Assembly: GCA_040218535.1 (NCBI GenBank) | Contig: JAVJRG010000005.1 | Location: forward strand, 1,550,001-1,614,000 | DNA length: 64,000 bases | Direction of reading: 5' to 3' | DNA from: Lacipirellulaceae bacterium | Lineage (GTDB): Bacteria > Planctomycetota > Planctomycetia > Pirellulales > Lacipirellulaceae | Shown: in pieces, positions 51,755 through 64,000 of the stretch | How the letters are laid out: every line of letters starts with the position of its first letter | Numbering within the stretch: the first letter of the stretch is position 1 | Translations under genes and position numbers: made by a program | Notes under the pieces: model-generated | Told to the model about the DNA's origin: nothing | What the model saw: only the letters and a program-made list of their open reading frames with translations | Databases searched by the model: none

Positions 51755-52090
51755 CTAAGGGTGCGTGCTACCGACATGGCTATCGATGCGTTCGCCGGTG
51801 CCGTCTAGCGTGTAAGCATTACCAGAAGCAGGGCAGACCGGGATTCCGCTGGGAAAGTGCTCTGCTTCCAGATCGGAGAGATTCGTCGGGAAGCTGCCGT
51901 GTTCGAGGTTGTACTTTTCCAGTGCGGTATTCAATTGGGCTCGATTGTGAGAGCAAGCCTTCTCTGCGGCATTACGATTCGAGACCGAAGCTCTGACAAC
52001 GAGGACACTCGCAAGAATCCCAATAACCGTCACGACTGCTAGGAGTTCAAGCAATGAGAACGCGCGACGCTTCGAGGATTGGATCTTCAT
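51755..52090 (-). CDS. pseudopilin (GspG/H-like)
   Basis: The 111-residue start at 52090 (MKIQSSKRRAF) gives a normal prepilin leader; the longer frame to 52258 would bury it. Prepilin motif RRAFSLLELLAVVTVIGILASVL has Ala rather than Gly at -1. The C-terminal region (LEHGSFPTNLSDLEAEHF, GIPVCPASGNAYTLD) resembles the minor pilins at 55791 and 56347, so the three are paralogues. It is on the opposite strand to the secretion cluster, facing the LamG gene. Confidence 0.82.
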   Translation of the reverse strand: MKIQSSKRRAFSLLELLAVVTVIGILASVLVVRASVSNRNAAEKACSHNRAQLNTALEKYNLEHGSFPTNLSDLEAEHFPSGIPVCPASGNAYTLDGTGERIDSHVGSTHP

Positions 52091-52442
52091 ATTTTCTTGC
52101 CCCAGGTTTCTCTTCCTATCGGTGTTGATCTCCTCATGGAAGGTGGCACCTTCAGCGGAGGAAAATTGGATCGCTAAAAAATACCTCTCTACTGGGGTTA
52201 TGCAGATTCGTTGATTCATCTTTTCACCATCCCGTAGGACTTGTCGGGTTGAGATCACGCTCTATGAGGGCTTTGACGATTGTGACGGGTAGCAGTTCTT
52301 GGGGTGGCTGTACTGCTCAGTAAGACTTTGACTCTGCACTTCTAGGAGCTACTTTTTGCTAGGTGTTGCCACAGGGCAACGTCGTTAGAGCGCTGATGCC
52401 TCTAAGAAACAAGAAGACTACCATCCTCGACTTGCAACTGTC
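52091..52442. other. intergenic region before the secretion cluster
   Basis: About 350 bp of divergent promoter region between the pseudopilin at 51755 (minus) and the receiver gene (plus). A small hairpin, GTTGCC-ACAG-GGCAAC, lies near 52364-52380. No gene is seen. Confidence 0.4.
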
Positions 52443-52835
52443 ATGGCAAAGCCCCGCGCTATCGTTTTGCTCATCGAAGAAGAGCCAATCCTTCGCGAAA
52501 TCACCGCGTTTCGCTTGGAGTTGCTCGGCTTTGAAGTCATCGAACGTGAGAATGCAGCGCAGGCTTCACTGTGGCTCAGTTCGAAGCTCCCTAACCTGGT
52601 AGCCGTTGGACAAATGTCTGACGTTGACTCCATAGATTTCGTGAATCGACTTAGCGACGACCAGCGGACGAATCATCTCCCCGTCGTCTATTTATCAGCC
52701 AATTCCGACCTAGAAGAGGTCCAGCGAGCCTTCAACGCGGGTGCGGATGAGTACCTGGTGACACCCTACGATCCTGTTGTGCTCGAGAAGAAAGTTGTCG
52801 GACTTATCGCCGCTGCTGAAGTTGAAGAGAACTAA
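52443..52835 (+). CDS. degenerate response-regulator receiver domain
   Basis: A 130-residue stand-alone CheY-like fold: IVLLIEEEPILREITAFRLELLGFEV, then LVAVGQM, HLPVVYLSA and AFNAGADEYLVTPYD. The acidic pocket is E-E-E, the phospho-acceptor position reads V-G-Q-M instead of a Asp-containing strand end, and the conserved Lys (K-P) is replaced by T-P. It is thus unlikely to be phosphorylated and fits the atypical receivers that act as binding modules. It begins the secretion cluster, 64 bp upstream of gspE, and may control assembly through protein contact. Confidence 0.8.
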   Translation: MAKPRAIVLLIEEEPILREITAFRLELLGFEVIERENAAQASLWLSSKLPNLVAVGQMSDVDSIDFVNRLSDDQRTNHLPVVYLSANSDLEEVQRAFNAGADEYLVTPYDPVVLEKKVVGLIAAAEVEEN

Positions 52836-52899
52836 ACAGGGTCGGGACGAACCGGCTCTCTTCTATCCCCTACATACCTAACACCGATCCCTACAAATA

Positions 52900-54585
52900 A
52901 TGGCCCGCTTAGGCGACATCCTGGTTCGACAAGGCTGCATCACTGAAGCCCAGCTGCAAAGTGCGCTGGCGGCTCAGGGGTCGGAGCGTGGACTGCTGGG
53001 TACGATTCTGATCCGGCGGAATCTCATCACGCCCGAGCAATTGGGCGGTGCCCTATCAGAGCAATACGGTGTTGACTTCGTTGAGATTGTGGCCGAAGGC
53101 ATCAATCCCCAAGTTGTCCGTTTGCTGCCCGAGGATCTCGCGCGTGAACGTCGCGTGGCACCGATTGCTATTCGTGATCGATCGTTGCAGCTAGCGATGA
53201 TCGCTCCTGACGATATGGACACGATCTGCGAAGCGGAGCTGATCACGGGCTACCATGTGGACCCAGTCGTCGCTCTGCCGAACAGCATCAGCGCCGCTTT
53301 AGACCGCGGTTTCGACGATCGGGTGGTGGCACGCCAAACGGTTGTTGACATGAAGATGGCCGACCTCGAAGCGGCCGAGGAGATGATTGAGGAGGAACTC
53401 AATCAGGAGGTGGTTGAAGAGGATCAAGCCCCGGTAGTCCGACTTGTGCGCGCTATTTTGATGGGTGCGATCAATGCCGGCACCAGTGATATCCACCTGG
53501 AGCCACATCAACCTGAAATGCGGGTTCGCTATCGTGTCGATGGTACCCTGCAGGCGGTAATGACCATTCCGCGTCATATCGAAGAGGCGGTCGTTGCGCG
53601 TATCAAGGTGATGGCTGACATGGACACCACTGAAAGCCGCCGCCCCCAGGATGGCCAGCTAACGATTCACGAATCAGGCTCACGCGTTAATTTTCGCGTG
53701 AGTACGATTCCGACGGTCGGTGGTGAGAAGGTCGTGATGCGGTTGCTGGATGAAGGAAGTCGCTCTTTCCAACTCGAACATCTGGGCCTATGCGAGCGCG
53801 ATCTCACAAAGATTCAGGCGTTGATTGATAAGCCACATGGCATGATCGTGGTCACCGGGCCGACGGGTTCTGGTAAGAGCACGACCATGTACTCGGTACT
53901 GTCGAAACTCAATGCCGTCAGCCGAAACATCGTCACGGTCGAAGACCCGGTCGAGTATCGCCTCCCGGGCATTAACCAAGTTGCTTCGGACAGCGAACAT
54001 GGTCTGGGCTTTGCGAACGCATTGAAATACATCATGCGGCAAGACCCAGACGTGATCATGTTGGGCGAGATCCGCGACCACGAGACTGCGAAGACAGCCG
54101 TGCAGGCTGCCCTTACCGGTCACTTGCTAATCAGCACCTTGCATACGAATGATGCCATCGGCTCAGTAGGGCGTCTGAATGACCTGGGCATTGATAACTT
54201 CAAGACAGGCGGTGCCCTGTTAGGTGCCATCGCACAACGATTGTTGCGTTCGATCTGCGAGCATTGCAAAGAGCCCGCAGAACCGAACGACCATTATCTG
54301 AACGCCCTGCATCACAATATCGATATCCCCGACGATACGATCTTCTTCCGAGGTCGCGGCTGCAAGAAGTGCCTAGGGACTGGCTATGCAGGCCGAGTCC
54401 CTATCTACGAGATCATGGTCGTGACGCCTCGGCTTTCCGAGGCGATCGAGAAGGGATTGCCAAACACCAAGCTACGTGAAATCGCCCTTGAAGAAGGGAT
54501 GGTCGAACTAGCAGGAGCAGGGATCGAGCAAGTGATCGCCGGTCGCACGACACTGGAAGAAGTTTTCTATAAGGTTTCTGGCTAA
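52900..54585 (+). CDS. gspE: type II secretion / type IV pilus assembly ATPase
   Basis: The 561-residue ATPase has an N-terminal MshEN-type region: RLGDILVRQGCITEAQ and onward (residues 3-26), then LLGTILIRRNLITPEQ (about 32-47). The core has Walker A GPTGSGKST (about 322-330), the Asp box DPVEYRLPG, Walker B LGEIRDHETA, and HTNDA, and a tetracysteine zinc site (CEHC...CKKC, about 452-490). It powers pseudopilus assembly at the inner membrane. The first MshEN motif keeps the residues that bind c-di-GMP in this fold (R-L-G, G, L, L, Q). GspF is 21 bp downstream. Confidence 0.95.
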   Translation: MARLGDILVRQGCITEAQLQSALAAQGSERGLLGTILIRRNLITPEQLGGALSEQYGVDFVEIVAEGINPQVVRLLPEDLARERRVAPIAIRDRSLQLAMIAPDDMDTICEAELITGYHVDPVVALPNSISAALDRGFDDRVVARQTVVDMKMADLEAAEEMIEEELNQEVVEEDQAPVVRLVRAILMGAINAGTSDIHLEPHQPEMRVRYRVDGTLQAVMTIPRHIEEAVVARIKVMADMDTTESRRPQDGQLTIHESGSRVNFRVSTIPTVGGEKVVMRLLDEGSRSFQLEHLGLCERDLTKIQALIDKPHGMIVVTGPTGSGKSTTMYSVLSKLNAVSRNIVTVEDPVEYRLPGINQVASDSEHGLGFANALKYIMRQDPDVIMLGEIRDHETAKTAVQAALTGHLLISTLHTNDAIGSVGRLNDLGIDNFKTGGALLGAIAQRLLRSICEHCKEPAEPNDHYLNALHHNIDIPDDTIFFRGRGCKKCLGTGYAGRVPIYEIMVVTPRLSEAIEKGLPNTKLREIALEEGMVELAGAGIEQVIAGRTTLEEVFYKVSG

Positions 54586-54606
54586 GTCGCAAGCGAGATC
54601 GAATTC

Positions 54607-55776
54607 ATGTCACGACGCAAACGCTACGCCTCTGCCAATGCCGGAACTTCGATTTACTCCAGTGGTTCGAGTGAAGCGAAGAAGGATGAGCCCTTCGATT
54701 TGTGGAAGGCGCTTACAAAGCCACGAAACGGCACGCAGAAGATGAAGCCTGCAGAGATGACTTTCATCCTGCGCAATCTTTCAACGCTTGTCAGTAACGG
54801 TGTTCCGCTGCCCAAAGCCTTGGCCACACTTGCCAAGGAAGATACGCTCGCGAAGCATCGTGACGTTCTCGATTCGTTGCGTCGCAAGGTTGAGGGCGGC
54901 TCGATGTTCAGCACGGCGCTCGCCGCTTTCCCGCACATGGCGGACAATATTACGCTAGCGCAGATTCGTCTGGGTGAGCGTTCGGGTACGCTCGTCGATA
55001 CGCTTTCTCACTTAGCTGAGCATCGCAACAAATCAAAAGAATTACGCGATCAAGTCATCAAGAAGTTGGCTTATCCTGTGCTGCTTTGTGTGTTGGGTGG
55101 CGGATTGATCACTTTTCTGTTGCTCTACGTGGTTCCTGTCTTCGAGCAGACGTATGCCGATGCAAAGGTCCCGCTGCCCTTCGTGACGCAAGTGCTGATC
55201 ACATTCGGGGCCTACTGCAAGGGTTACCTGGGCTGGCTAGTTGGAGTAGGTATCCTAGCGGTGGCAAGCATCAAGCAACTTCGCAAGAATGAGCAATTCG
55301 CTGCTCAGATGGACCGTGGAATCCTCAAGCTACCGCTGTTTGGCAATTTGTTTCGCGACATGGCTGTCTTGCAAGTCATGGAAGTGCTCAACAACTTGAT
55401 GACTGCGGGATTCAATCTGGCTGATGCTTTGTCTGACACGGCCGACTCCGTGAAGAATCGGGCCGTCCGCCAAGCAGTACTCGACCTGCAGCATGCTGTG
55501 CAGCGAGGGGAACGATTCAGTCGTGAACTGGAACGTCACGAAGATCTGTTTCCACCGATTGTGAACCAGCTCGTTATCGTCGGAGAAAGCACGGGCAAAC
55601 TGACCAATGCGACGCTCGATATCTGCAATCACGTACGGCTAGAAATCGAGCGAAAGACAACGTTACTCGTTGGTTCCCTGGAGCCAATCCTCACGATTTC
55701 GCTGGCTTCGGCCATCGCAGTCATTCTACTTGCGATTTACCTGCCAATGTTCGACATGGTGAACACGGTCCAATAA
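54607..55776 (+). CDS. gspF: type II secretion / type IV pilus inner-membrane platform protein
   Basis: A 389-residue GspF/PilC protein with two repeated T2SSF domains (about 60-185: ILRNLSTLVSNGVPLPKALATL; 265-385: VLNNLMTAGFNLADALSDTAD) and three membrane segments (YPVLLCVLGGGLITFLLLYVVPV, GYLGWLVGVGILAVASI, ILTISLASAIAVILLAIYLP). It forms the platform on which GspE acts. The N-terminal 50 residues are low in complexity and charged. Gene order gspE-gspF-pseudopilins is standard. Confidence 0.95.
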   Translation: MSRRKRYASANAGTSIYSSGSSEAKKDEPFDLWKALTKPRNGTQKMKPAEMTFILRNLSTLVSNGVPLPKALATLAKEDTLAKHRDVLDSLRRKVEGGSMFSTALAAFPHMADNITLAQIRLGERSGTLVDTLSHLAEHRNKSKELRDQVIKKLAYPVLLCVLGGGLITFLLLYVVPVFEQTYADAKVPLPFVTQVLITFGAYCKGYLGWLVGVGILAVASIKQLRKNEQFAAQMDRGILKLPLFGNLFRDMAVLQVMEVLNNLMTAGFNLADALSDTADSVKNRAVRQAVLDLQHAVQRGERFSRELERHEDLFPPIVNQLVIVGESTGKLTNATLDICNHVRLEIERKTTLLVGSLEPILTISLASAIAVILLAIYLPMFDMVNTVQ

Positions 55777-55790
55777 AGGCAAAGTAAGTG

Positions 55791-56141
55791 ATGACGAAGT
55801 GCAACTGCAGTAACTTGGCATCCAGCTTCGGCAGAACCGGCTTCTCGATGACCGAGATGCTTGCTGTTGTCGCGTTGCTGGGGATCCTTAGTGCGATGAT
55901 CGTTCCACGGATAGCTGGCAACGATACGGAAGCTGACAAGGCAGCCTGCCATTCCTACGTTGGTGATATCGAGATTCAGGCGGAGATTTGGAATCACAAC
56001 ACCGGGGGATGGCCGGCAGCGAATCTCTCCGATATCGGAACTGACCTGAACTACTTTCCAGGGGGACTTCCGACGTGCCCCGTTGATGGAAGTACCTACA
56101 CAATCGATTCAAACGGAAGAGTCATCGGTCATACCCACTGA
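55791..56141 (+). CDS. minor pseudopilin
   Basis: ATG at 55791 directly follows GTG at 55788. The 116-residue protein has a prepilin leader RTG-FSMTEMLAVVALLGILSAMIVPRI and Glu at +5. The C-terminus (GGWPAANLSDIGTDLNYFPGGLPTCP, YTIDSNGRVIGHTH) resembles the 51755 and 56347 pseudopilins. It lies 14 bp after gspF. Confidence 0.88.
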   Translation: MTKCNCSNLASSFGRTGFSMTEMLAVVALLGILSAMIVPRIAGNDTEADKAACHSYVGDIEIQAEIWNHNTGGWPAANLSDIGTDLNYFPGGLPTCPVDGSTYTIDSNGRVIGHTH

Positions 56142-56346
56142 CCGTGTCTACAAAAGACAAGTCACGAGGATTATGACGCTTGTAAGTCCAATTCACGCTA
56201 ACGAACAGGCAAACTAAGCGGAAAACATCAGCCTGTTGCAAAAAGTAATCTACGTTTAAGTAAACCGATAAGGCAAACATTGCCACAGATGGGTCAGCAA
56301 ACCGGCCCCCTCGATATTTCGACCCTGCCACAAGGAGTTCCCTAAG

Positions 56347-56652
56347 ATGAAGAAGACTGGAAAGCGCGGCGGTTTCTCGCTGCTCGAATTGCTCGCCGTT
56401 GTTACCATTCTCGGCATTATCGCCTCGATCATCGTCCCTCGCGTGACGGTTTCGAGCACCACGGCTAAAGAGAAGGTACGTGCTCACCACGTAGCTACGA
56501 TGAACGCTGCGTTCGAGCGTTACTACATTGAAGAGAACGCCTGGCCAACTGCGATCGCCACCCTTGTACCAGACTACCTACCAGATGGCGAGCCAGTCGA
56601 CCCAACTGGCGTTGGGTACACCGTGAACAACACTAGCCACCGCGTTGAGTAA
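56347..56652 (+). CDS. probable major pseudopilin (GspG-like)
   Basis: A short 101-residue prepilin with AGGAG 8 bases before the ATG, the best ribosome-binding site in the cluster. Leader KRGG-FSLLELLAVVTILGIIASIIVPRVTV with Gly at -1 and Glu at +5. Short body ending YLPDGEPVDPTGVGYTVNN. Its length, strong translation signal and the terminator-like hairpin placed just after its stop suggest that it is the abundant subunit, but the paralogue at 55791 is an alternative. Confidence 0.85.
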   Translation: MKKTGKRGGFSLLELLAVVTILGIIASIIVPRVTVSSTTAKEKVRAHHVATMNAAFERYYIEENAWPTAIATLVPDYLPDGEPVDPTGVGYTVNNTSHRVE

Positions 56653-56688
56653 TCGACACTCAGCGTGACAAGGAGATTGCAGATCGCG

Positions 56689-57186
56689 ATGCGACGCAAT
56701 TTGGAATATCGGCAAAAGGCTCGCCGCTGCTTGCAGTGGCGAGCCTTTAGTTTTTTGGAAGTGATTGCCGTGGTAACGCTCATCGGCATCGTTAGCCTGG
56801 CGGCGATTTCGCGCTTCGGTCACTCCTCCTTAGAGAACCTGAGTGCAGAGGGCTACGCCCGGCTCCTGCAGCGAGACCTCATGCAGGCTCGCCAAAGGAC
56901 GGTTGCCACAGGCGATAACCACTATCTGAGCCTCACAACGATCGGCGGAGAGGTTACCACCTATACCATGTGGCGAAGAGCCAGTGGAGGTGACGTAGCG
57001 GTTGATCAGGCACGCACAACCCCTACTGGGCTAACCGTCACAGCTAGCCACACAACGCTGGAATTCGACTTCGACGGCTCGGCACTAGCCAGCTATGTCG
57101 TCACCGCCGCAGGACCCGACCGTTCGTGGCAAGTCTCGGCCATTCCCGCTACGGGACTGTGCCAAGTCGCGGACGTCAGTCCCTAG
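56689..57186 (+). CDS. pseudopilin (GspH-like) with an internal terminator-like hairpin
   Basis: ATG 56689 has GGAG 13 bases upstream; GTG 56665 is an alternative. The 165-residue protein has the leader WRA-FSFLEVIAVVTLIGIVSLAAI (Ala at -1, Glu at +5), then helix SAEGYARLLQRDLMQARQRTVAT and a GspH-like beta sheet. Codons 10-23 coincide with a 16-bp perfect stem followed by six T, i.e. an intrinsic-terminator shape. Confidence 0.85.
   Translation: MRRNLEYRQKARRCLQWRAFSFLEVIAVVTLIGIVSLAAISRFGHSSLENLSAEGYARLLQRDLMQARQRTVATGDNHYLSLTTIGGEVTTYTMWRRASGGDVAVDQARTTPTGLTVTASHTTLEFDFDGSALASYVVTAAGPDRSWQVSAIPATGLCQVADVSP
56715..56756 (+). terminator. intrinsic-terminator-like hairpin inside a pseudopilin gene
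   Basis: AAAGGCTCGCCGCTGC (56715-56730), TT, then the pairing arm (56733-56748) with one G-U wobble, then AG and TTTTTT (56751-56756). It lies 63 bp after the stop of the preceding pseudopilin gene and within the first 25 codons of the next. Confidence 0.75.
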
Positions 57187-57339
57187 GTCGGCAATCTTGT
57201 CCAATACCTATTCTGACGGTTACTCGGGTCTGCGGACTTGGCGTTAAGAGGTGTCGGGAAGCCGACTTGAGCCTTCTGTGACCTACGCTTGTCATAAGAC
57301 GTTGAGTTCTGTCAACGTGGTTCTGATGAAGACTGCCTC

Positions 57340-57798
57340 ATGTTTCGACTTCGTAACAACCAACGCCAACAGGCCAAGCGTTCCGGTTTCTCTCTAGTTG
57401 AGATGATCGCCGCGACCGCCTTGGTCGCCGGTACGCTCGTTCCAGCACTGGCAGTGATGCGCGAGGCGATGTCGTTGAGTCGCGAGACACACCTGCGGAG
57501 CTTGTTGGCAAATTTCGCTGTCATGAAGTTGGAGGAGTGTTCCTCGGTCGCGATGCGGAATTGGACTAACGCCACTGATGATGGCGACTTGAGCGCCTAC
57601 GGCTACAGCAACTTGAGTTTCACGATGGTGCGCTCGGACGACCCTGCGGATGGCGGTATGGTTGGTCAGCTTATGTCTATTAGCGTGACTGTCTTTGACG
57701 ACCTCGACGGAGACCTAATCCCAGATACGGGGGAAACTCAGGTGCAGTTCCGCACCAAAATATCGAAACTACTTACCTACGAGAATGAAGAAGTCTAG
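57340..57798 (+). CDS. minor pseudopilin (GspI/J-like)
   Basis: A 152-residue prepilin with RSG-FSLVEMIAATALVAGTLVPAL, helix LRSLLANFAVMKLEECSSVAM as in GspI/PilV, and a beta-rich C-terminus with a calcium-like DLDGDLIPDTGE. Its stop overlaps the next start by 14 bp, implying coupled translation. Confidence 0.85.
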   Translation: MFRLRNNQRQQAKRSGFSLVEMIAATALVAGTLVPALAVMREAMSLSRETHLRSLLANFAVMKLEECSSVAMRNWTNATDDGDLSAYGYSNLSFTMVRSDDPADGGMVGQLMSISVTVFDDLDGDLIPDTGETQVQFRTKISKLLTYENEEV

Positions 57799-58309
57799 CA
57801 ACAACGCGAAACGAGGCTTCTCGCTGCTGGAACTGAGCATCGCGATGGCTATGATGGCTGCGCTTTCCGCGGCTAGCATGGTCCTGCTGCGCACTTCGCA
57901 GAATGCGTGGAATCGTCATCGCGACGATCATGAGAGATCACAAAGTGCTTCGGCGGCGTTGAGGCATATCGTTCGAAATGCTCGACAATCAGTAGCAGTA
58001 ACGGCCATCACCTCGCCCACGAACAATTCAGGATCGCTCTCACTACAACGGTCAGACGGCGCGATTCTCGTTTGGAATCACGACGGAGTCAACGACCAAG
58101 TGAACTACGGGATCACGACCGCCAGTAGTTTGCTTTCCAACTATATTACTGCCTTAACCTTCACGGGATACAAGGCGGATGGGATATCTACCACCGAGGA
58201 CGTCGATCTGATTCATATCGTCGAGTGTACCGTCACTTACGAACTTGATCGCCCGACTGGAACAACTGCCAAGCAACTGACCTCAAGAGCATGGCTGAGG
58301 TCCTGGTGA
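57785..58309 (+). CDS. minor pseudopilin (GspJ-like)
   Basis: A 174-residue prepilin with KRG-FSLLELSIAMAMMAALSAASMVL, then SASAALRHIVRNARQSVAV and a GspJ/PilW-like domain that ends VECTVTYELDRPTG. It is translationally coupled to the previous gene. GspI/J pairs form the pseudopilus tip complex with GspK. Confidence 0.85.
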   Translation: MKKSSNNAKRGFSLLELSIAMAMMAALSAASMVLLRTSQNAWNRHRDDHERSQSASAALRHIVRNARQSVAVTAITSPTNNSGSLSLQRSDGAILVWNHDGVNDQVNYGITTASSLLSNYITALTFTGYKADGISTTEDVDLIHIVECTVTYELDRPTGTTAKQLTSRAWLRSW

Positions 58310-58329
58310 CAACTAGAGAACCGATACGC

Positions 58330-58728
58330 ATGAACCGTCTTTCACGACAAAACGGAGGACCCAGTCGTCTTCGCACCCCGGCACCACGCCGTGGGGCAGC
58401 GATGATGCTGTGTTTGTTTGTCGTTTTCATGGTCACGATGCTCTTGGTGCAAATCCTGAACACAATGACGAGCGATTTAGCTTTAATCCGTAGCACGATT
58501 GACCACGAGAGAGCACTTTACCTAGCCAATGCTGGGATTCATGAAGCAACCGCCATGGTGGAAGCAGACACGACTTGGCGAGGGGTTGTTTCCGAAGGAA
58601 CTTACCCAAACCACGACTCTTACACGGCAACAGCCGTTGATGGAACCGACCCGTTTACTGTCTCGGTAACGTCGTCTGGCGCTTCGGGCGCAGTCACCAG
58701 AACCGTTACAGCAGTCCTTGAGTTCTAA
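58330..58728 (+). CDS. PilX/GspK-like pilus tip component
   Basis: A 132-residue protein with RRGAAMMLCLFVVFMVTMLLVQIL as membrane helix, then ERALYLANAGIHEATAMVE, typical of PilX/GspK N-termini. ATG 58330 is preferred; ATG 58291 overlaps the previous gene by 19 bp and remains possible. The +5 Glu of normal pilins is absent, as in GspK. Confidence 0.75.
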   Translation: MNRLSRQNGGPSRLRTPAPRRGAAMMLCLFVVFMVTMLLVQILNTMTSDLALIRSTIDHERALYLANAGIHEATAMVEADTTWRGVVSEGTYPNHDSYTATAVDGTDPFTVSVTSSGASGAVTRTVTAVLEF

Positions 58729-58765
58729 ATTCCCACTGGCAACTAACCAGAAACTGTAGAAAAAC

Positions 58766-59662
58766 ATGAGCGATCGCAGAGAACAAACTGATCGACGAGA
58801 AGAAGGCGAGCGGCGACGACCAAAACGACGCCAAGCTGGTGAAGAACAAATTCTGATCGTTGAACTCAATGGCTCCGAGCTGTTTGCGTGTCTCATGCAG
58901 CAGCAGGCTGGGGATTCTCCAGACCTTGTCAGTAGTTTCAACTTGACCTGGCGACGGGAATCCGCCGTACTCAATAGTGAGGCAGGGCTTGAGGAAATCA
59001 CTGAGGGTATGCGTGTTATCGCGAAGCACTTCAAGCTAGTGACGACTTCTGTCCACTTTGTGCTTAGCGGCGAATACTGTGTAACTCGCGCCATTCGCGG
59101 CAGTAGTGATGATGTCAGGGCGGAACTGCAACGTATTAGCCAACGCAGCCGTCTGTATCTGTCGCTTGGACCTGGTGAGAAAGTTGTTGTCTCAAATACA
59201 CGCACTCTCGACGCACGGCATCAGCACGCATTAGCCGCTGTCTGTAACGAGAAAACGCTCAAGACGATTCAATTGGCATCGGAAAGTGTTGGCTTGCAGA
59301 TCGCGTCAATCGAACCGGCGCTTTCGGCAGCCAATCGCGCCGTGAGCCGTATCCCTGGCATTCCAGAGACGCCCTATCTGCTCATCCACCTCGATGATTC
59401 CTCGCCCGACATCGGGGTCTGCCAGCATGGGCAGCTACTGCTGGATTACCGTCCAGGAGGTCAGACGAGTCCCGACGAGCTTCCCGCGTTGCTGCTGGAG
59501 CATCGGAATCGATTGCAACGACATACGGGGCGACAACTGCAGCAAGCTCCTCCTGAGCTGACGACGGTTTACCTCTGCGGCCAAGATCGCGCGGTGAGCG
59601 AAGCAGTCACCGCTTTTGCAAAGCAAGGAGATTTCACGGCCATTCAAGCCGACTCTCAGTAA
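58766..59662 (+). CDS. PilM-like (GspL cytoplasmic domain) protein, ends early
   Basis: A 298-residue actin-like fold: ILIVELNGSELFACLMQ (phosphate 1-like), VHFVLSGEYCVTRAI, LGLQIASIEPALSAANRAV, PYLLIHLDDSSPDIGVCQ and TVYLCGQDRAVSEAV. The N-terminus is an extremely charged RRE-rich stretch. It is the cytoplasmic partner of GspE. A TAA at 59660 stops it, but the same frame continues at once with GTG, and the next 39 codons look like the missing PilM C-terminus (VPSLGALLGNHYL). Confidence 0.82.
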   Translation: MSDRREQTDRREEGERRRPKRRQAGEEQILIVELNGSELFACLMQQQAGDSPDLVSSFNLTWRRESAVLNSEAGLEEITEGMRVIAKHFKLVTTSVHFVLSGEYCVTRAIRGSSDDVRAELQRISQRSRLYLSLGPGEKVVVSNTRTLDARHQHALAAVCNEKTLKTIQLASESVGLQIASIEPALSAANRAVSRIPGIPETPYLLIHLDDSSPDIGVCQHGQLLLDYRPGGQTSPDELPALLLEHRNRLQRHTGRQLQQAPPELTTVYLCGQDRAVSEAVTAFAKQGDFTAIQADSQ

Positions 59663-60346
59663 GTGCAAGCAACCTGGCAGCTAGTTCAGGGAGAGAGCGG
59701 TGAAGCAGGCGTTCCCTCGCTAGGAGCGTTATTGGGCAACCACTATCTGGCTGACGCTGACCGAGATGCCCCGAATCTGATGGAGCACATCATTGCCAGT
59801 ACCCAAGAGCCTCTCAAACCGACGCTCATTCGGTCCGCGATACCACTTGCAGCCATGCTGCTGCTAGCAATTGGCATGTTTGTCATCAACTTCAACGAAC
59901 AGGGCAAACTGACTCAGCTTGAGGCGGAGTACAGCAAGCTAGAGCCTGTCGAGATGCGTGCCAAGGAACTGCGGCTTCAGTTGCTAAGAACTGAATCGAA
60001 GGCAGTCGAGATGGAAAAGGTCGCCTCCCAGTTGAATCGACCTTTAGGAAGCGAAGCCCTGAAACAGCTGGGGAATTGCATGCCCAGTGACGTTTGGCTT
60101 CGGCGACTGACGCTTGAGAATGGCAAGTCCATCCAGCTAGACGGCAGCAGCTTCCTGCCTGCTGGCGTGTACGACTTTGTTCGCTGGTTGGAACAAGCCC
60201 CTGGCTTTGACGAGGTTGCTCTCAAAGCGACTCGTCCGACTTCCTCCGAAGCAGGCCCTGTTACTGGCTTCACGCTCGAACTGGAAGTCGTTGACCTTAA
60301 CGATCAGGCTGAGATTACCGCAGAAAAGGTGGCAAGCAATGAATAG
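59663..60346 (+). CDS. PilN-like (GspL membrane/periplasmic part) protein
   Basis: A 227-residue protein starting at GTG immediately after the PilM TAA, in the same frame and without a Shine-Dalgarno. Residues 1-40 look like the end of PilM; then APNLMEHII, membrane helix IPLAAMLLLAIGMFVINF (about 60-77), coiled coil and a PilN ferredoxin-like domain (CMPSDVWLRRLTLENGKSIQLDGSS). Its stop overlaps the next start by 8 bp. Confidence 0.82.
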   Translation: MQATWQLVQGESGEAGVPSLGALLGNHYLADADRDAPNLMEHIIASTQEPLKPTLIRSAIPLAAMLLLAIGMFVINFNEQGKLTQLEAEYSKLEPVEMRAKELRLQLLRTESKAVEMEKVASQLNRPLGSEALKQLGNCMPSDVWLRRLTLENGKSIQLDGSSFLPAGVYDFVRWLEQAPGFDEVALKATRPTSSEAGPVTGFTLELEVVDLNDQAEITAEKVASNE

Positions 60347-60965
60347 TTCCCTAATCCGCAAATTTTGCGAATCCCGATACCGTTGGCCAATCGTTGCAAC
60401 AGCCACCCTGTTGGTGGGCCTCGTGACGCTGCTGCCACTTGCCGATGTCTATTCTGAGAAAAGAGAGGCTTGTAACGTTCTTAAGGACAAATTGGATAGT
60501 GCCCGTCAGACGGCCAAGACGCTTCCGAAGTTTGAGGAACGTGTCGAAAAGGTCGCTCAGGAATTGGAGGCCCTGGAAGCAAGAGGTGTCGGCGAAGAAC
60601 GCATCGGAGACTTGCGGAACCGCATCATTAAGCTTGCCCGTGATAACAACTGCCAAGTCCGTAAGATTGAGATGGGCTCACCGCTCAGACGCATTTGGCT
60701 AAAGGATGCCGACGTGCTTGAAACGCAAGCCGTTTCAAAAAGTGCAAAAGGCAAGACACCTTTCGAGTTGGTTCGGCGCACGATGGTTCTTGCTGTTGAC
60801 GGCAACATGGCTGACCTTGAGCTGTTGCTAGAGAAGATTCAGGAGGAGAAAACCTTAGCTCACCCACAACGCTTGAGCCTCAACCATACCGGACGAGGGG
60901 CAAAAACCGTTGGAATGGAAATTGAACTCCTCCTGTTTGATTTGACCAGAAAAAGGAAGACGTAG
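60339..60965 (+). CDS. PilO/GspM-like protein
   Basis: A 208-residue bitopic protein: membrane helix WPIVATATLLVGLVTLLPLAD (about 15-35), coiled coil (EKREACNVLKDKLDSARQTAKTL region), then a PilO-like domain. ATG 60339 overlaps the PilN stop, a coupling typical of PilN-PilO pairs. It should link PilN to the secretin via PilP. Confidence 0.82.
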   Translation: MNSSLIRKFCESRYRWPIVATATLLVGLVTLLPLADVYSEKREACNVLKDKLDSARQTAKTLPKFEERVEKVAQELEALEARGVGEERIGDLRNRIIKLARDNNCQVRKIEMGSPLRRIWLKDADVLETQAVSKSAKGKTPFELVRRTMVLAVDGNMADLELLLEKIQEEKTLAHPQRLSLNHTGRGAKTVGMEIELLLFDLTRKRKT

Positions 60966-61188
60966 ATTTAAGTTAACGGAGTGTTAAGCCCCCAACAGAT
61001 GACAGGCAACCCGTTTTCAGTGGTGGCACACAAAGTTTACAAGCTCGAAGTGTAATCAACTCAGGAAGTACAACTCGCTATGCCTTTTCGCCTGATTGCC
61101 CTATCAGGCGAAATCAGAGTCAAAACGAAACGCAACGTTCTCTGGTATTTGAGGACGATGCAACTTGGGGCAGTGTCAAGGAGGACAC

Positions 61189-63186
61189 ATGCTCGACATT
61201 GATAAAACTATTCTAAGGAGAGTTCCGAGACCGTCGCCTCGACGGTTTGCGGTCTGCGCTATCCTAATAGTATTCGGGTGCACGCTCTTCGCCCCGGACT
61301 GCAACGCACAAGCGCTTCAACCTCCACAGAACGGGCGATCCGCGGACAAGTTGCCCGCACAAGTCGTAGCTGAGAAGGTCGAAAGCCTCCCCGAGCAGAA
61401 GGATTCAGAACCTCAACTGACTCTCGATGAGGCTCTGGCGAGGCGAGGAGACCTCACACTGCGGGGTGCGAATTCCAGCATCGAGAACGCACTGTTTGCC
61501 ATCAGTGAAATCTGGAAGGTGAATATCGTTGTCGGCAAGGATGTGAAGGGAAGCGTTACAGGGACTTTTAAGCAGACGCCGCTTCGCGAGATTCTCGACT
61601 CGATTCTTCTAGCCAATGGTTACTCCTATCGGGCCATCGGCGATAGCATCACGGTTCTGCCCGCCAGAGAAGTTGGGAGTGCGAACCCACTTTTCAGTGA
61701 GTTGGCAATCCCCATTCAGCACGGTGATCTCAAAGAGTTGGTCGAAGCGGCTCAACTCTTGACGAGTACTCAGGGTAAGGTCCGCGCACTCAACTCTTCT
61801 CGCAGTATTCTTGTAATCGATTATTCTGACCGAGCCGAGAAGATCGCCGCCTTTATCGAGAAAATGGAAGATGCAGCTTCCCGAGTGGAACCCACGCAAG
61901 TTGCACCGGATGGTTCGATTGAACCAGTACCAAGCCAACTGGAAGTCGCCTACTTCCACACGCAGTACGTTGCCGCAGAGACTGTCAGAGCCCCACTCCT
62001 GGCCGTCATGAGTACCCAAGGTCGCGTTGAGGTAATGACGGCTGAAAACCGCTTGATTGTGGTCGACACAGCAGATCGCCTGGAGATGGTGCGACGCGTC
62101 TTGGCTCGCATTGATCGCCCTCGTCCGCAGGTGCGGATCACGGCTCTTATTTATGACTTGAGCCTTGAGGATGTTGAGCAACTTGGCCTGAACTGGAACA
62201 GTGGCGGTAAAGGTAATTCCTTAGGTGCTGAAGGCGGACCGAATCAGCTTCTACAACTCGATACGACAACGCTTGCTCCCTTCACCGCGGGCGGAGCTGG
62301 TGGGGCACTGACAGTGCAAAGCCTGACCCGCAACTTTGACATTACCGCAGTAGCGCTGGCTTTACAGAACGCGAATGACGCCCGGCTGTTGGCAGATCCC
62401 AACGTTACGGTCATGGACAACGAAGTGGCGGAATGGAAAAGCGTTTCGGAAATTCCCTTCCAGCAAGCAACACAAACAGAGTTTGGTGGCAACATTGGCA
62501 CGACAGCCTTCAAGGAAGCCGGTATCACGCTGAAAGTGCAGCCGACAATTGCAGCCGACGGTACTGTGGAGATGCTGATCGAGCCTGAATTCAGTCGACT
62601 CGCGGGTTTTACTCCTCAAGAGAACCAGCCGATTATCGATACACGGAAGACCAGCACGACCGTGCGTGTGGCAAATCGTCAGACGCTGGTGCTCAGTGGC
62701 CTACGGCAACGGAGCGACACGGGTGAGTTCAATGGCATCCCCTTCTTGAAAGACATCAAAGGAATCGGTCCCCTGTTCCGATCGCGTGACACGCTCGTTC
62801 GGGAAAGCGAACTGATTGTGTTCATCATGCCAGAGATCGTCGGCTACGAAGATCCGCTCGACGCCCGCCAGTATCAGGCTCTCGACACGGTGAACTGCCG
62901 CCTCGCCCGTATTCCCGAGGCTGAAGGGTGCCCTTCGGACGGTCAAGGCTGCAGCGATTGCGTTGGCGACTGGGGAGACGAGCACCTAATCCAGCTTCCA
63001 CCCGTCGAACAAGAGCCCGCCATGGAAGTGCCTGTCTCCGACGTTGGCCCGATGCGACAGAACTACGAAGCGCGCTTCCGGGCGAATGCCCCCAGCCAAT
63101 TGCAGGGAAGGCTTACTGATCGCTCCACAGAGAAAGACCCCGCTCCCGCTAAGCGGAGTATCTGGCAACGAATGAAGGGCTCGTAA
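61189..63186 (+). CDS. gspD: secretin (GspD/PilQ family)
   Basis: AGGAGG 6 bases upstream fixes the start at 61189. The 665-residue protein has a signal peptide (FAVCAILIVFGCTLFAPDCNAQ), an N0/N1-type region (LTLRGANSSIENALFAISEIWKVNIVVG), a further N-domain (YFHTQYVAAETVRAPLLAVMSTQGRVEVM) and the secretin barrel domain with the conserved LLADPNVTVMDNEVAEW, VGG-less lip (FQQATQTEFGGNIGTTAFKEAGITLKVQP) and VLSGLRQRSDT, GIPFLKDIKGIGPLFRSRD. It is the outer-membrane channel of the system. Cys-rich GCPSDGQGCSDCVGDWGD near the C-terminus is unusual. Confidence 0.93.
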   Translation: MLDIDKTILRRVPRPSPRRFAVCAILIVFGCTLFAPDCNAQALQPPQNGRSADKLPAQVVAEKVESLPEQKDSEPQLTLDEALARRGDLTLRGANSSIENALFAISEIWKVNIVVGKDVKGSVTGTFKQTPLREILDSILLANGYSYRAIGDSITVLPAREVGSANPLFSELAIPIQHGDLKELVEAAQLLTSTQGKVRALNSSRSILVIDYSDRAEKIAAFIEKMEDAASRVEPTQVAPDGSIEPVPSQLEVAYFHTQYVAAETVRAPLLAVMSTQGRVEVMTAENRLIVVDTADRLEMVRRVLARIDRPRPQVRITALIYDLSLEDVEQLGLNWNSGGKGNSLGAEGGPNQLLQLDTTTLAPFTAGGAGGALTVQSLTRNFDITAVALALQNANDARLLADPNVTVMDNEVAEWKSVSEIPFQQATQTEFGGNIGTTAFKEAGITLKVQPTIAADGTVEMLIEPEFSRLAGFTPQENQPIIDTRKTSTTVRVANRQTLVLSGLRQRSDTGEFNGIPFLKDIKGIGPLFRSRDTLVRESELIVFIMPEIVGYEDPLDARQYQALDTVNCRLARIPEAEGCPSDGQGCSDCVGDWGDEHLIQLPPVEQEPAMEVPVSDVGPMRQNYEARFRANAPSQLQGRLTDRSTEKDPAPAKRSIWQRMKGS

Positions 63187-63210
63187 CGAATCTGCGGCCT
63201 AAGGTGTACT

Positions 63211-63236
63211 CAGCCGAGGGACTACGGCTCTGTTTT
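63211..63236 (+). terminator. possible rho-independent terminator after the secretin
   Basis: AGCCG-AGGGACTA-CGGCT followed by CTGTTTTT, 25 bp after the stop. Short stem, so moderate confidence. Confidence 0.5.
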
Positions 63237-63366
63237 TCTCCCTTGTTTTCTAGGGTCTTTCTAACACCCGCAGCTGAGAGAGCTACCTTTGAGTAGCTAA
63301 ATCCCTCAAGTCGGTTCCGCTTTTGGATCCGTATGTCGGATGAGACGACGTTCAAGGCATAATCTT

Positions 63367-63879
63367 ATGAGACAGTCCCCAATCTCACTTCCGCTCTTAT
63401 TGCTTCCTCTTGCGATGCAGGGTTGCAGCGAGGCGGAACCGTCTGCCGTGGTCGCACCACCAGTGGCAGCAGTCGCGACACAAAGCACTGCACCCCCTAA
63501 GCAACAGGCCAAGCCTGCTTCTTCCAAAAAGAAGAGTGACGCTCCAAAAGGCAAGGAACTGAAGGGCACCGACCAGCCGGCTAAGGTGGAGAAGAAGGCG
63601 GATTACGCGCCTCCGTTTCCTGACCGTGTCGAAATGTTTGCCGCTCCACGCCGCAATGGAGCCCTCAAGAACAACAATGGCGAACAGGGTGAAGCCGTCG
63701 AACTGATGGGCTTCTCGACGCTCGACAAACCCCGCGCATTGCTACTGCTCAATGGGGAAGTCTCGACGCTTGCTGAGGGTGACAAAGTTGGCGAGCTCGA
63801 AGTGGTTTCCATTCAGCCGCCCACGAAAGTGGTTCTCCAGCAAGGGCGTCAACGGACGCAATTGTCGCTAGACAATTAG
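63367..63879 (+). CDS. PilP/GspC-like lipoprotein
   Basis: A 170-residue protein from ATG 63367 with a lipoprotein-like leader (LPLLLLPLAMQGCS), a long Lys/Pro/Ala-rich linker and a C-terminal HR-type beta domain (LMGFSTLDKPRALLLLNGEV, GDKVGELEVVSIQPPTKVVL, GRQRTQLSL). The domain layout is that of PilP or the GspC HR domain, the periplasmic link to the secretin. It closes the cluster. Confidence 0.78.
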   Translation: MRQSPISLPLLLLPLAMQGCSEAEPSAVVAPPVAAVATQSTAPPKQQAKPASSKKKSDAPKGKELKGTDQPAKVEKKADYAPPFPDRVEMFAAPRRNGALKNNNGEQGEAVELMGFSTLDKPRALLLLNGEVSTLAEGDKVGELEVVSIQPPTKVVLQQGRQRTQLSLDN

Positions 63880-63897
63880 TTGGGATGACTGTTCGCT

Positions 63898-64000
63898 TTA
63901 GACGTGATTCAACTTGTTCAGCCCGTTGTACGCTGCCACCTTGTAGCACTCGGCTAACGTTGGGAAGTTGAACACGTTGTTGATGAAGAACTCAGCCCTG
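63898..64000 (-). CDS. sthA: soluble pyridine nucleotide transhydrogenase, 3' end only
   Basis: The minus strand from the right edge encodes [32 protein letters not shown] and TAA at 63898. This matches the C-terminus of the SthA flavoprotein ([27 protein letters not shown]). It converts NADPH and NAD to NADP and NADH. The rest of the gene lies outside the window. Confidence 0.88.

Follow-up and report, generated by a model that had tools for sequence, protein, structure and literature searches.

Intrinsic terminators and other hairpins inside operons have been described as devices that adjust the amounts of the encoded proteins. In clostridial operons for ABC importers, internal intrinsic terminators with long GC stems and a low number of U residues have been shown to set the ratios of the subunits (PMC9045158). 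In the cip-cel operon, stem-loops are reported to set the ratios of cellulosome components (PMC4423207), and the paper on the puf operon cites a 1987 study of an intercistronic hairpin and segment stability (PMC6238624). A terminator inside a reading frame can be tolerated, since brfA is reported to have a Rho-independent terminator within its own frame, which is disrupted by synonymous mutation (PMC8012679). For E. coli, translation that depends on EF-P is reported to keep transcription from ending prematurely at intrinsic terminators within genes (PMC5021804).

Why many major and few minor pilins are made from one operon is often unexplained. In this article, we describe an RNA hairpin in the first codons of a gspH-like pseudopilin gene, just downstream of a gspG-like gene, which would offer a direct answer.

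The hairpin and its operon

The window (the whole stretch of 64,000 nucleotides that was analysed) belongs to a bacterium whose closest named relative is Adhaeretor mobilis (Lacipirellulaceae, Pirellulales), and it carries on the forward strand an operon with genes of the type II secretion or type IV pilus machine. The upstream part encodes a GspE/PilB-type assembly ATPase (52900-54585; Pfam PF00437, 2.6e-122), a GspF/PilC-type inner-membrane protein (54607-55776; PF00482, 7.9e-51) and a pseudopilin (55788-56141; TIGR02532, weak TIGR01710), followed by the gspG-like gene that is the upstream partner of the hairpin (56347-56652). The original prediction took the latter for the probable major pseudopilin, an assignment that in our analysis rests on a TIGR01710 match (1.3e-11, 44.7 bits) below the cut-off of 88.85; its name for the next gene, GspH-like, was right, with a weak match (NCBIfam TIGR01708, 1.3e-4, 22.0 bits against a cut-off of 80) and with orthologues in relatives. 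This gspH-like gene encodes a minor pseudopilin of 165 residues that carries the hairpin in its leader codons (56689-57186); it starts at ATG 56689, GTG 56665 also being possible, and AAGGAG at 56670-56675, 13 nt before the ATG, reads as a possible Shine-Dalgarno sequence. Downstream are a pseudopilin in the GspI position (57340-57798; prepilin motif TIGR02532), a GspJ-like pseudopilin (57785-58309; TIGR01711, 6e-4) and a GspK-like protein (58291-58728; NF037980, 9e-4). Another GspG-like pseudopilin lies divergently beside the operon (51755-52258, reverse strand), with similar divergent matches in several relatives, and at loci L010/L039 and L052 a gspG-like copy is found both upstream and downstream of gspH.

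The 5' arm of the hairpin (56715-56729, leader codons K-A-R-R-C) and its 3' arm (56734-56748, codons Q-W-R-A and then F, the first mature residue), both seen in the fold and in covariation, form 15 contiguous pairs, one of them G-U, around the loop CTTG (56730-56733), whose sequence is not conserved. The position, the single wobble pair and the six T had been predicted correctly, whereas the predicted 16 pairs and 2-base loop are not what the RNA fold gives: the would-be 16th pair, which closes a 2-nt loop, is left open. Counted from ATG 56689, the stem extends over codons 9-20, and the last T of the run falls in codon 23; the distance of 63 nt from the gspG stop codon, which ends at 56652, to the beginning of the stem is as proposed. 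The six T (56751-56756) are preceded by TTTAG and fall in the U-rich tail TTTAGTTTTTT (56746-56756), which encodes F-S-F-L within the conserved prepilin motif and in which U is above synonymous expectation family-wide. Unlike an end-of-unit terminator, the hairpin does not lie in untranslated DNA after a stop codon.

The hairpin is real. The RNA fold of 56680-56790 has a free energy of -46.0 kcal/mol compared with -33.9 for shuffled sequences (z = -3.47; none of 200 shuffles as stable), and among 197 sense hairpins of at least 9 pairs within ORFs in 800 kb of the source genome (crude ORF calls) none reaches 14 pairs. The stem sequence occurs once in the source genome, and therefore the hairpin is not a dispersed repeat; a dispersed palindromic repeat or mobile element was ruled out by this single copy. 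A search of 52000-64000 with 4227 Rfam covariance models gave no match up to E of 1, which rules out a known RNA family as the identity of the hairpin.

The gspH hairpin among Lacipirellulaceae

A gspH match at E <= 0.001 is present in 31 of 43 Lacipirellulaceae genomes. Among 29 distinct family loci, picked after the alignments were seen (L046 was initially counted as outgroup), 28 keep the same fixed register, with a 4-nt loop, in the last codons of the prepilin leader and form 10-15 of its 15 pairs; the remaining one, L007, is shorter by one codon and folds with a 3-nt loop, for which reason it has only 7 pairs in the shared register. In 22 of the 29 loci no other 40-nt window is as stable as the hairpin, in 28 the hairpin ranks first or second, and the reading frame is open through it in all 29. 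In the alignment of 28 rows, with L007 left out, 89.8% of cells pair and 11 of the 15 stem pairs have changed on both sides. The covariation score is 0.540, compared with 0.180 for shuffled alignments (0 of 500 as high) and at most 0.131 with the arms slid; the shuffle tests, like the Fisher test below, ignore kinship, for which the genus-weighted tail test is a partial remedy. The orthologues carrying the hairpin rule out a structure that is confined to the source strain or due to chance. As read from these alignments, the gspH hairpin is conserved across Lacipirellulaceae as a covarying RNA element inside coding sequence.

The gspH clade defined by the tree has 31 members, including L046, whose stem is degenerate; five weak gspH matches (L030-L033 and L054, E > 1e-8) were left out, and L116 and L117 are absent from the tree. 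At L030 (about 1480-1560), a family-member gspH with an early in-frame stop codon still carries the hairpin. The gspH of L096 groups with genus g12 of Lacipirellulaceae although its genome is filed in family f18, with 4% contamination, a placement that could reflect transfer, misbinning or a classification issue.

The prepilin leader A-R-R...R-R-A is a palindrome in codon terms, and the null model must therefore preserve the peptide. In this register the Ala codons GCN and the Arg codons CGN are self-complementary, so that the peptide by itself accounts for two thirds of the core pairs, and recoded leaders fold at about -16 kcal/mol on average, as would be expected if the hairpin were a by-product of coding that the codon palindrome forms by itself and that has no RNA function. 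We regard this explanation as very improbable. In synonymous recoding, with codon usage drawn from genes at the loci themselves (gspH, gspG or genes nearby) rather than from whole genomes, the natural stem has a mean z of -2.64 at the 29 family loci (p <= 0.05 in 25), compared with +1.29 in the first outgroup set (0 of 15). When the loci are sorted by tree clade, 25 of the 31 members and 2 of 28 other gspH genes have a stem that surpasses 95% of its recodings in stability. Four third-position pairs are Watson-Crick in 27, 23, 22 and 18 of the 29 loci, where 9.5, 8.1, 8.0 and 7.8 are expected. The dyad is thus conserved at synonymous sites, the check named in the original prediction, and the recoding and third-position tests contradict a pure coding by-product. 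Furthermore, Met at -10 accompanies Met at +1 in 9 of 11 loci and occurs in 0 of 18 others (Fisher 5.5e-6, uncorrected for kinship), and at L040, a locus that groups in the tree with the Met-type genus g4, AGG stands opposite CTG, both changed and still paired. The palindromic peptide looks like a consequence of the stem: amino-acid choice in the gspH leader appears to follow it, with RNA pairing dictating the residues. This is a clear bacterial case of such a pattern, and a warning that variation of the prepilin-leader motif, such as Met for Phe at +1, can be due to selection on the RNA and not on the protein.

Within the family loci, the conserved hairpin is restricted to gspH. At equivalent windows of the other pseudopilin genes, recoding gives p <= 0.05 in 1 of 28 gspG, 3 of 25 upstream and 0 of 54 downstream genes, or 4 of 107 together. 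The best local hairpin test, which considers a hairpin within 34 codons of the start, is positive in 26 of 29 family gspH genes, 9 of 30 other gspH genes, and 10 of 107 and 5 of 44 other pseudopilin genes at family and outgroup loci, respectively (at 15 loci the cleavage site is placed one codon too far upstream in these figures and in the tail and start-distance figures below, and correctly in the 31-member recoding). These paralogue controls rule out a general habit of pseudopilin starts.

The U-rich tail and hairpins of other Pirellulales

In mature codons +1 to +4 of gspH, T exceeds synonymous expectation by 1.01 per 12 nt as the mean of 12 genera, the excess being positive in 10 of the 12 (p = 0.0003). 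In the same codons C is down by 1.39 and A and G show no significant change; mere A+T richness is ruled out, as A is not enriched. The T excess is absent in gspG, upstream and downstream pseudopilins (p = 0.56, 0.70 and 0.16). The terminator score, with a formula after d'Aubenton-Carafa 1990, is 30.0 for the window copy, similar to strong intergenic terminators of the source genome, where 20 of 131 intergenic hairpins in 800 kb score above 20. Of the 29 family copies, 13 score above 0; none of 30 other gspH genes and none of 151 other pseudopilin starts do so. By residue at +1, the score is positive in 12 of 18 family copies with F, L or Y and in 1 of 11 with Met; the 16 family copies below 0 include 10 of the 11 Met-type copies, in which the U's lie several bases beyond the stem. 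A GC-rich stem followed by a U-rich tract is thus present in the window copy, but family-wide only in part (13 of 29). Elsewhere in the source genome, most hairpins picked up by a covariance model of the element are, by our reading of their surroundings, intergenic and terminator-like; in the family search, this model was built on most of the sequences that it recovers. Based on the gene-specific T excess, the terminator scores and the matches of the covariance model, terminator anatomy is, as far as such sequence measures go, selected in at least part of the family. A separate terminator-like hairpin of the source genome, at C5:457457-457480 (locus L147), has seven T and a score of 47.5 and lies 14 nt inside the start of a crude ORF, probably a wrong start call.

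Comparison of loci indicates that in Pirellulales a hairpin close to the beginning of gspH, directly behind gspG, recurs in several forms. Class II hairpins lie over the first mature codons (R-R-G...A-V-V) at L014, L029, L048, L049, L050, L055, L064 and L067; all eight exceed synonymous expectation (p <= 0.04) and are specific to gspH. Class III hairpins (N-D-R...R-S-F) occupy earlier codons of a leader that is longer, at L110-L115, which belong to one Pirellulaceae genus, with p <= 0.05 in three of the six and a weaker signal in three. L106 is a single case of another gspH hairpin, and 10 of 57 tree rows are labelled hairpin-free. At L053 (near 5863) and L068 (near 6039) the hairpin is instead intergenic, between gspG and gspH; its arms are similar to those of the class II coding hairpin, as though a former pilin start had lost its frame and kept the stem. 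A clear U excess was not found after the class II and III hairpins of other Pirellulales, and termination is consequently plausible only where the U tail exists.

With start codons chosen by rule, the median distance from the start codon of gspH to the base of the stem is 29 nt in class I and 24 nt in both class II and class III; outliers go as far as 50 nt (class I) and 81 nt (class II), and in class III the distance is 24 nt in 6 of 6. The leaders of the three classes are about 20, 10-14 and 25 residues long. In contrast to the distance from the start, that from stem to cleavage site varies widely among classes (the class III values are one codon short). A broader reading, which we consider rather less likely than not, is that the hairpin was gained more than once across Pirellulales at different codons near the gspH start, and is for that reason conserved in position and function but not in sequence; that it shapes the leader residues and the first mature residue (Phe, Met or Leu); and that it sets the ratio of major to minor pseudopilin as an RNA device embedded in coding sequence.

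Candidate mechanisms and known systems

The mechanism we favour, tentatively and at not quite even chances, is a partial intrinsic terminator inside the gspH start that lowers gspH and the downstream genes relative to gspG on one transcript. RNA polymerase leaving gspG would transcribe the 15-bp stem in the first gspH codons; at the U-rich F-S-F-L codons a fraction of the complexes would release the RNA at about 56756, and the remaining polymerases would read through into gspH-I-J-K. The shortened RNA would comprise the complete gspG and a 3' hairpin, possibly protective, and more major than minor pseudopilin would be made. What is observed is the stem with its covariation, the selection on it at synonymous sites, its restriction to gspH and the U excess; that RNA is released here, how often, with what effect on the subunit ratio and with what part for ribosomes that translate gspH, we infer. 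The original prediction of partial termination is supported insofar as stem and U tail are held at synonymous sites and specific to gspH, and the window copy scores like an intergenic terminator; the both-sided changes at 11 of 15 pairs and the terminator-like company in which the covariance model places the element also favour it, as does the precedent of clostridial internal terminators with long GC stems and few U's (PMC9045158). As a general terminator the element is not supported, since 16 family copies score below zero and the class II and III hairpins lack a clear U excess, so that the hairpin alone may be the shared property. In addition, a transcript that ends within gspH has no in-frame stop codon, which is costly, although tmRNA is present in the genome, and the U-rich stretch after the hairpin could equally be an RNase E site.

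This last point leads to the main rival, RNA processing and stabilisation, in which a cut in the U-rich gspH start would leave the hairpin to shield the 3' end of gspG while the downstream piece decays, making the ratio post-transcriptional. By our analysis such a processing hairpin, as in the puf operon, would fit nearly as well as a partial terminator, but we still think it unlikely. It would account for the hairpin being kept in lineages without a U tract (class II, class III and Met-type family members), its position next to gspG and the selection on it would agree with such a role if gspG is the more abundant gene, and enrichment of U only, beside the stem, suits an RNase E site, although A is not enriched and the cited RNase E sites are AU-rich. 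In Rhodobacter, the reported RNase E cut in the puf operon falls in the 5' portion of pufL, within its coding sequence (PMC6238624), and stem-loop energy is reported to set subunit ratios in clostridial operons (PMC4423207). Such hairpins, however, usually lie in untranslated RNA, whereas the gspH stem lies in codons that ribosomes must open, and the window copy has full terminator anatomy. Less probable again is a brake on translation, in which a stem just beyond the initiating ribosome would slow the first elongation steps on gspH and reduce the minor pseudopilin. The similar median distances from the start in three classes with different leader lengths are in its favour, but the distance may reflect only the need for an open ribosome-binding site, the outliers reach 50 and 81 nt, and the U excess is not predicted. 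We give even less credence to the translation-coupled attenuator of the original prediction, in which prompt initiation on gspH would open the hairpin and prevent termination, so that the output senses translation. The hairpin is indeed within the frame, about 26 nt after ATG 56689, and ribosomes are reported to prevent intragenic intrinsic termination in E. coli (PMC5021804), but it is complete only about 60 nt past the start codon, and a ribosome would therefore have little time to open it. In terms of layout, a partial terminator needs no such coupling. A ribosome initiating on gspH leaves the base of the stem, 26 nt past the start codon, free by the size of its footprint, and a fixed partial terminator would therefore explain the layout.

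In the literature searched, no description of a hairpin at the gspG-gspH junction was found. We place the gspH element among internal stoichiometry elements, without calling it a proven terminator. Terminators within operons are already known to set subunit ratios; a putative one written into the coding start of the next gene is new, as are, judged by the comparisons above, covariation within codons throughout the family, a U excess confined to this gene and the recurrent gspH-start hairpins. Translation-coupled attenuators have a hairpin and a U tract in a translated region, and the gspH element shares both; leader-peptide sensing and an alternative structure are further features of theirs. 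The terminators of brfA and arfA are likewise internal to an ORF (PMC8012679), but they end the gene's own product for ribosome rescue, whereas the gspH element stands at the start of its gene and probably limits gspH and the genes behind it. As described for cip-cel and puf (PMC4423207, PMC6238624), a hairpin next to the gene with the higher output on a polycistronic mRNA sets a subunit ratio, which the gspH hairpin would resemble; the gspH family differs in the U-specific tail behind the stem. The terminators of the ABC-importer operons (PMC9045158) are alike in their long GC stem, their few U's and their place between an abundant upstream product and its scarcer partners; they are intergenic and their termination has been shown, whereas the gspH element is a predicted one that lies in the coding start of the next gene, where the amino acids covary with it.
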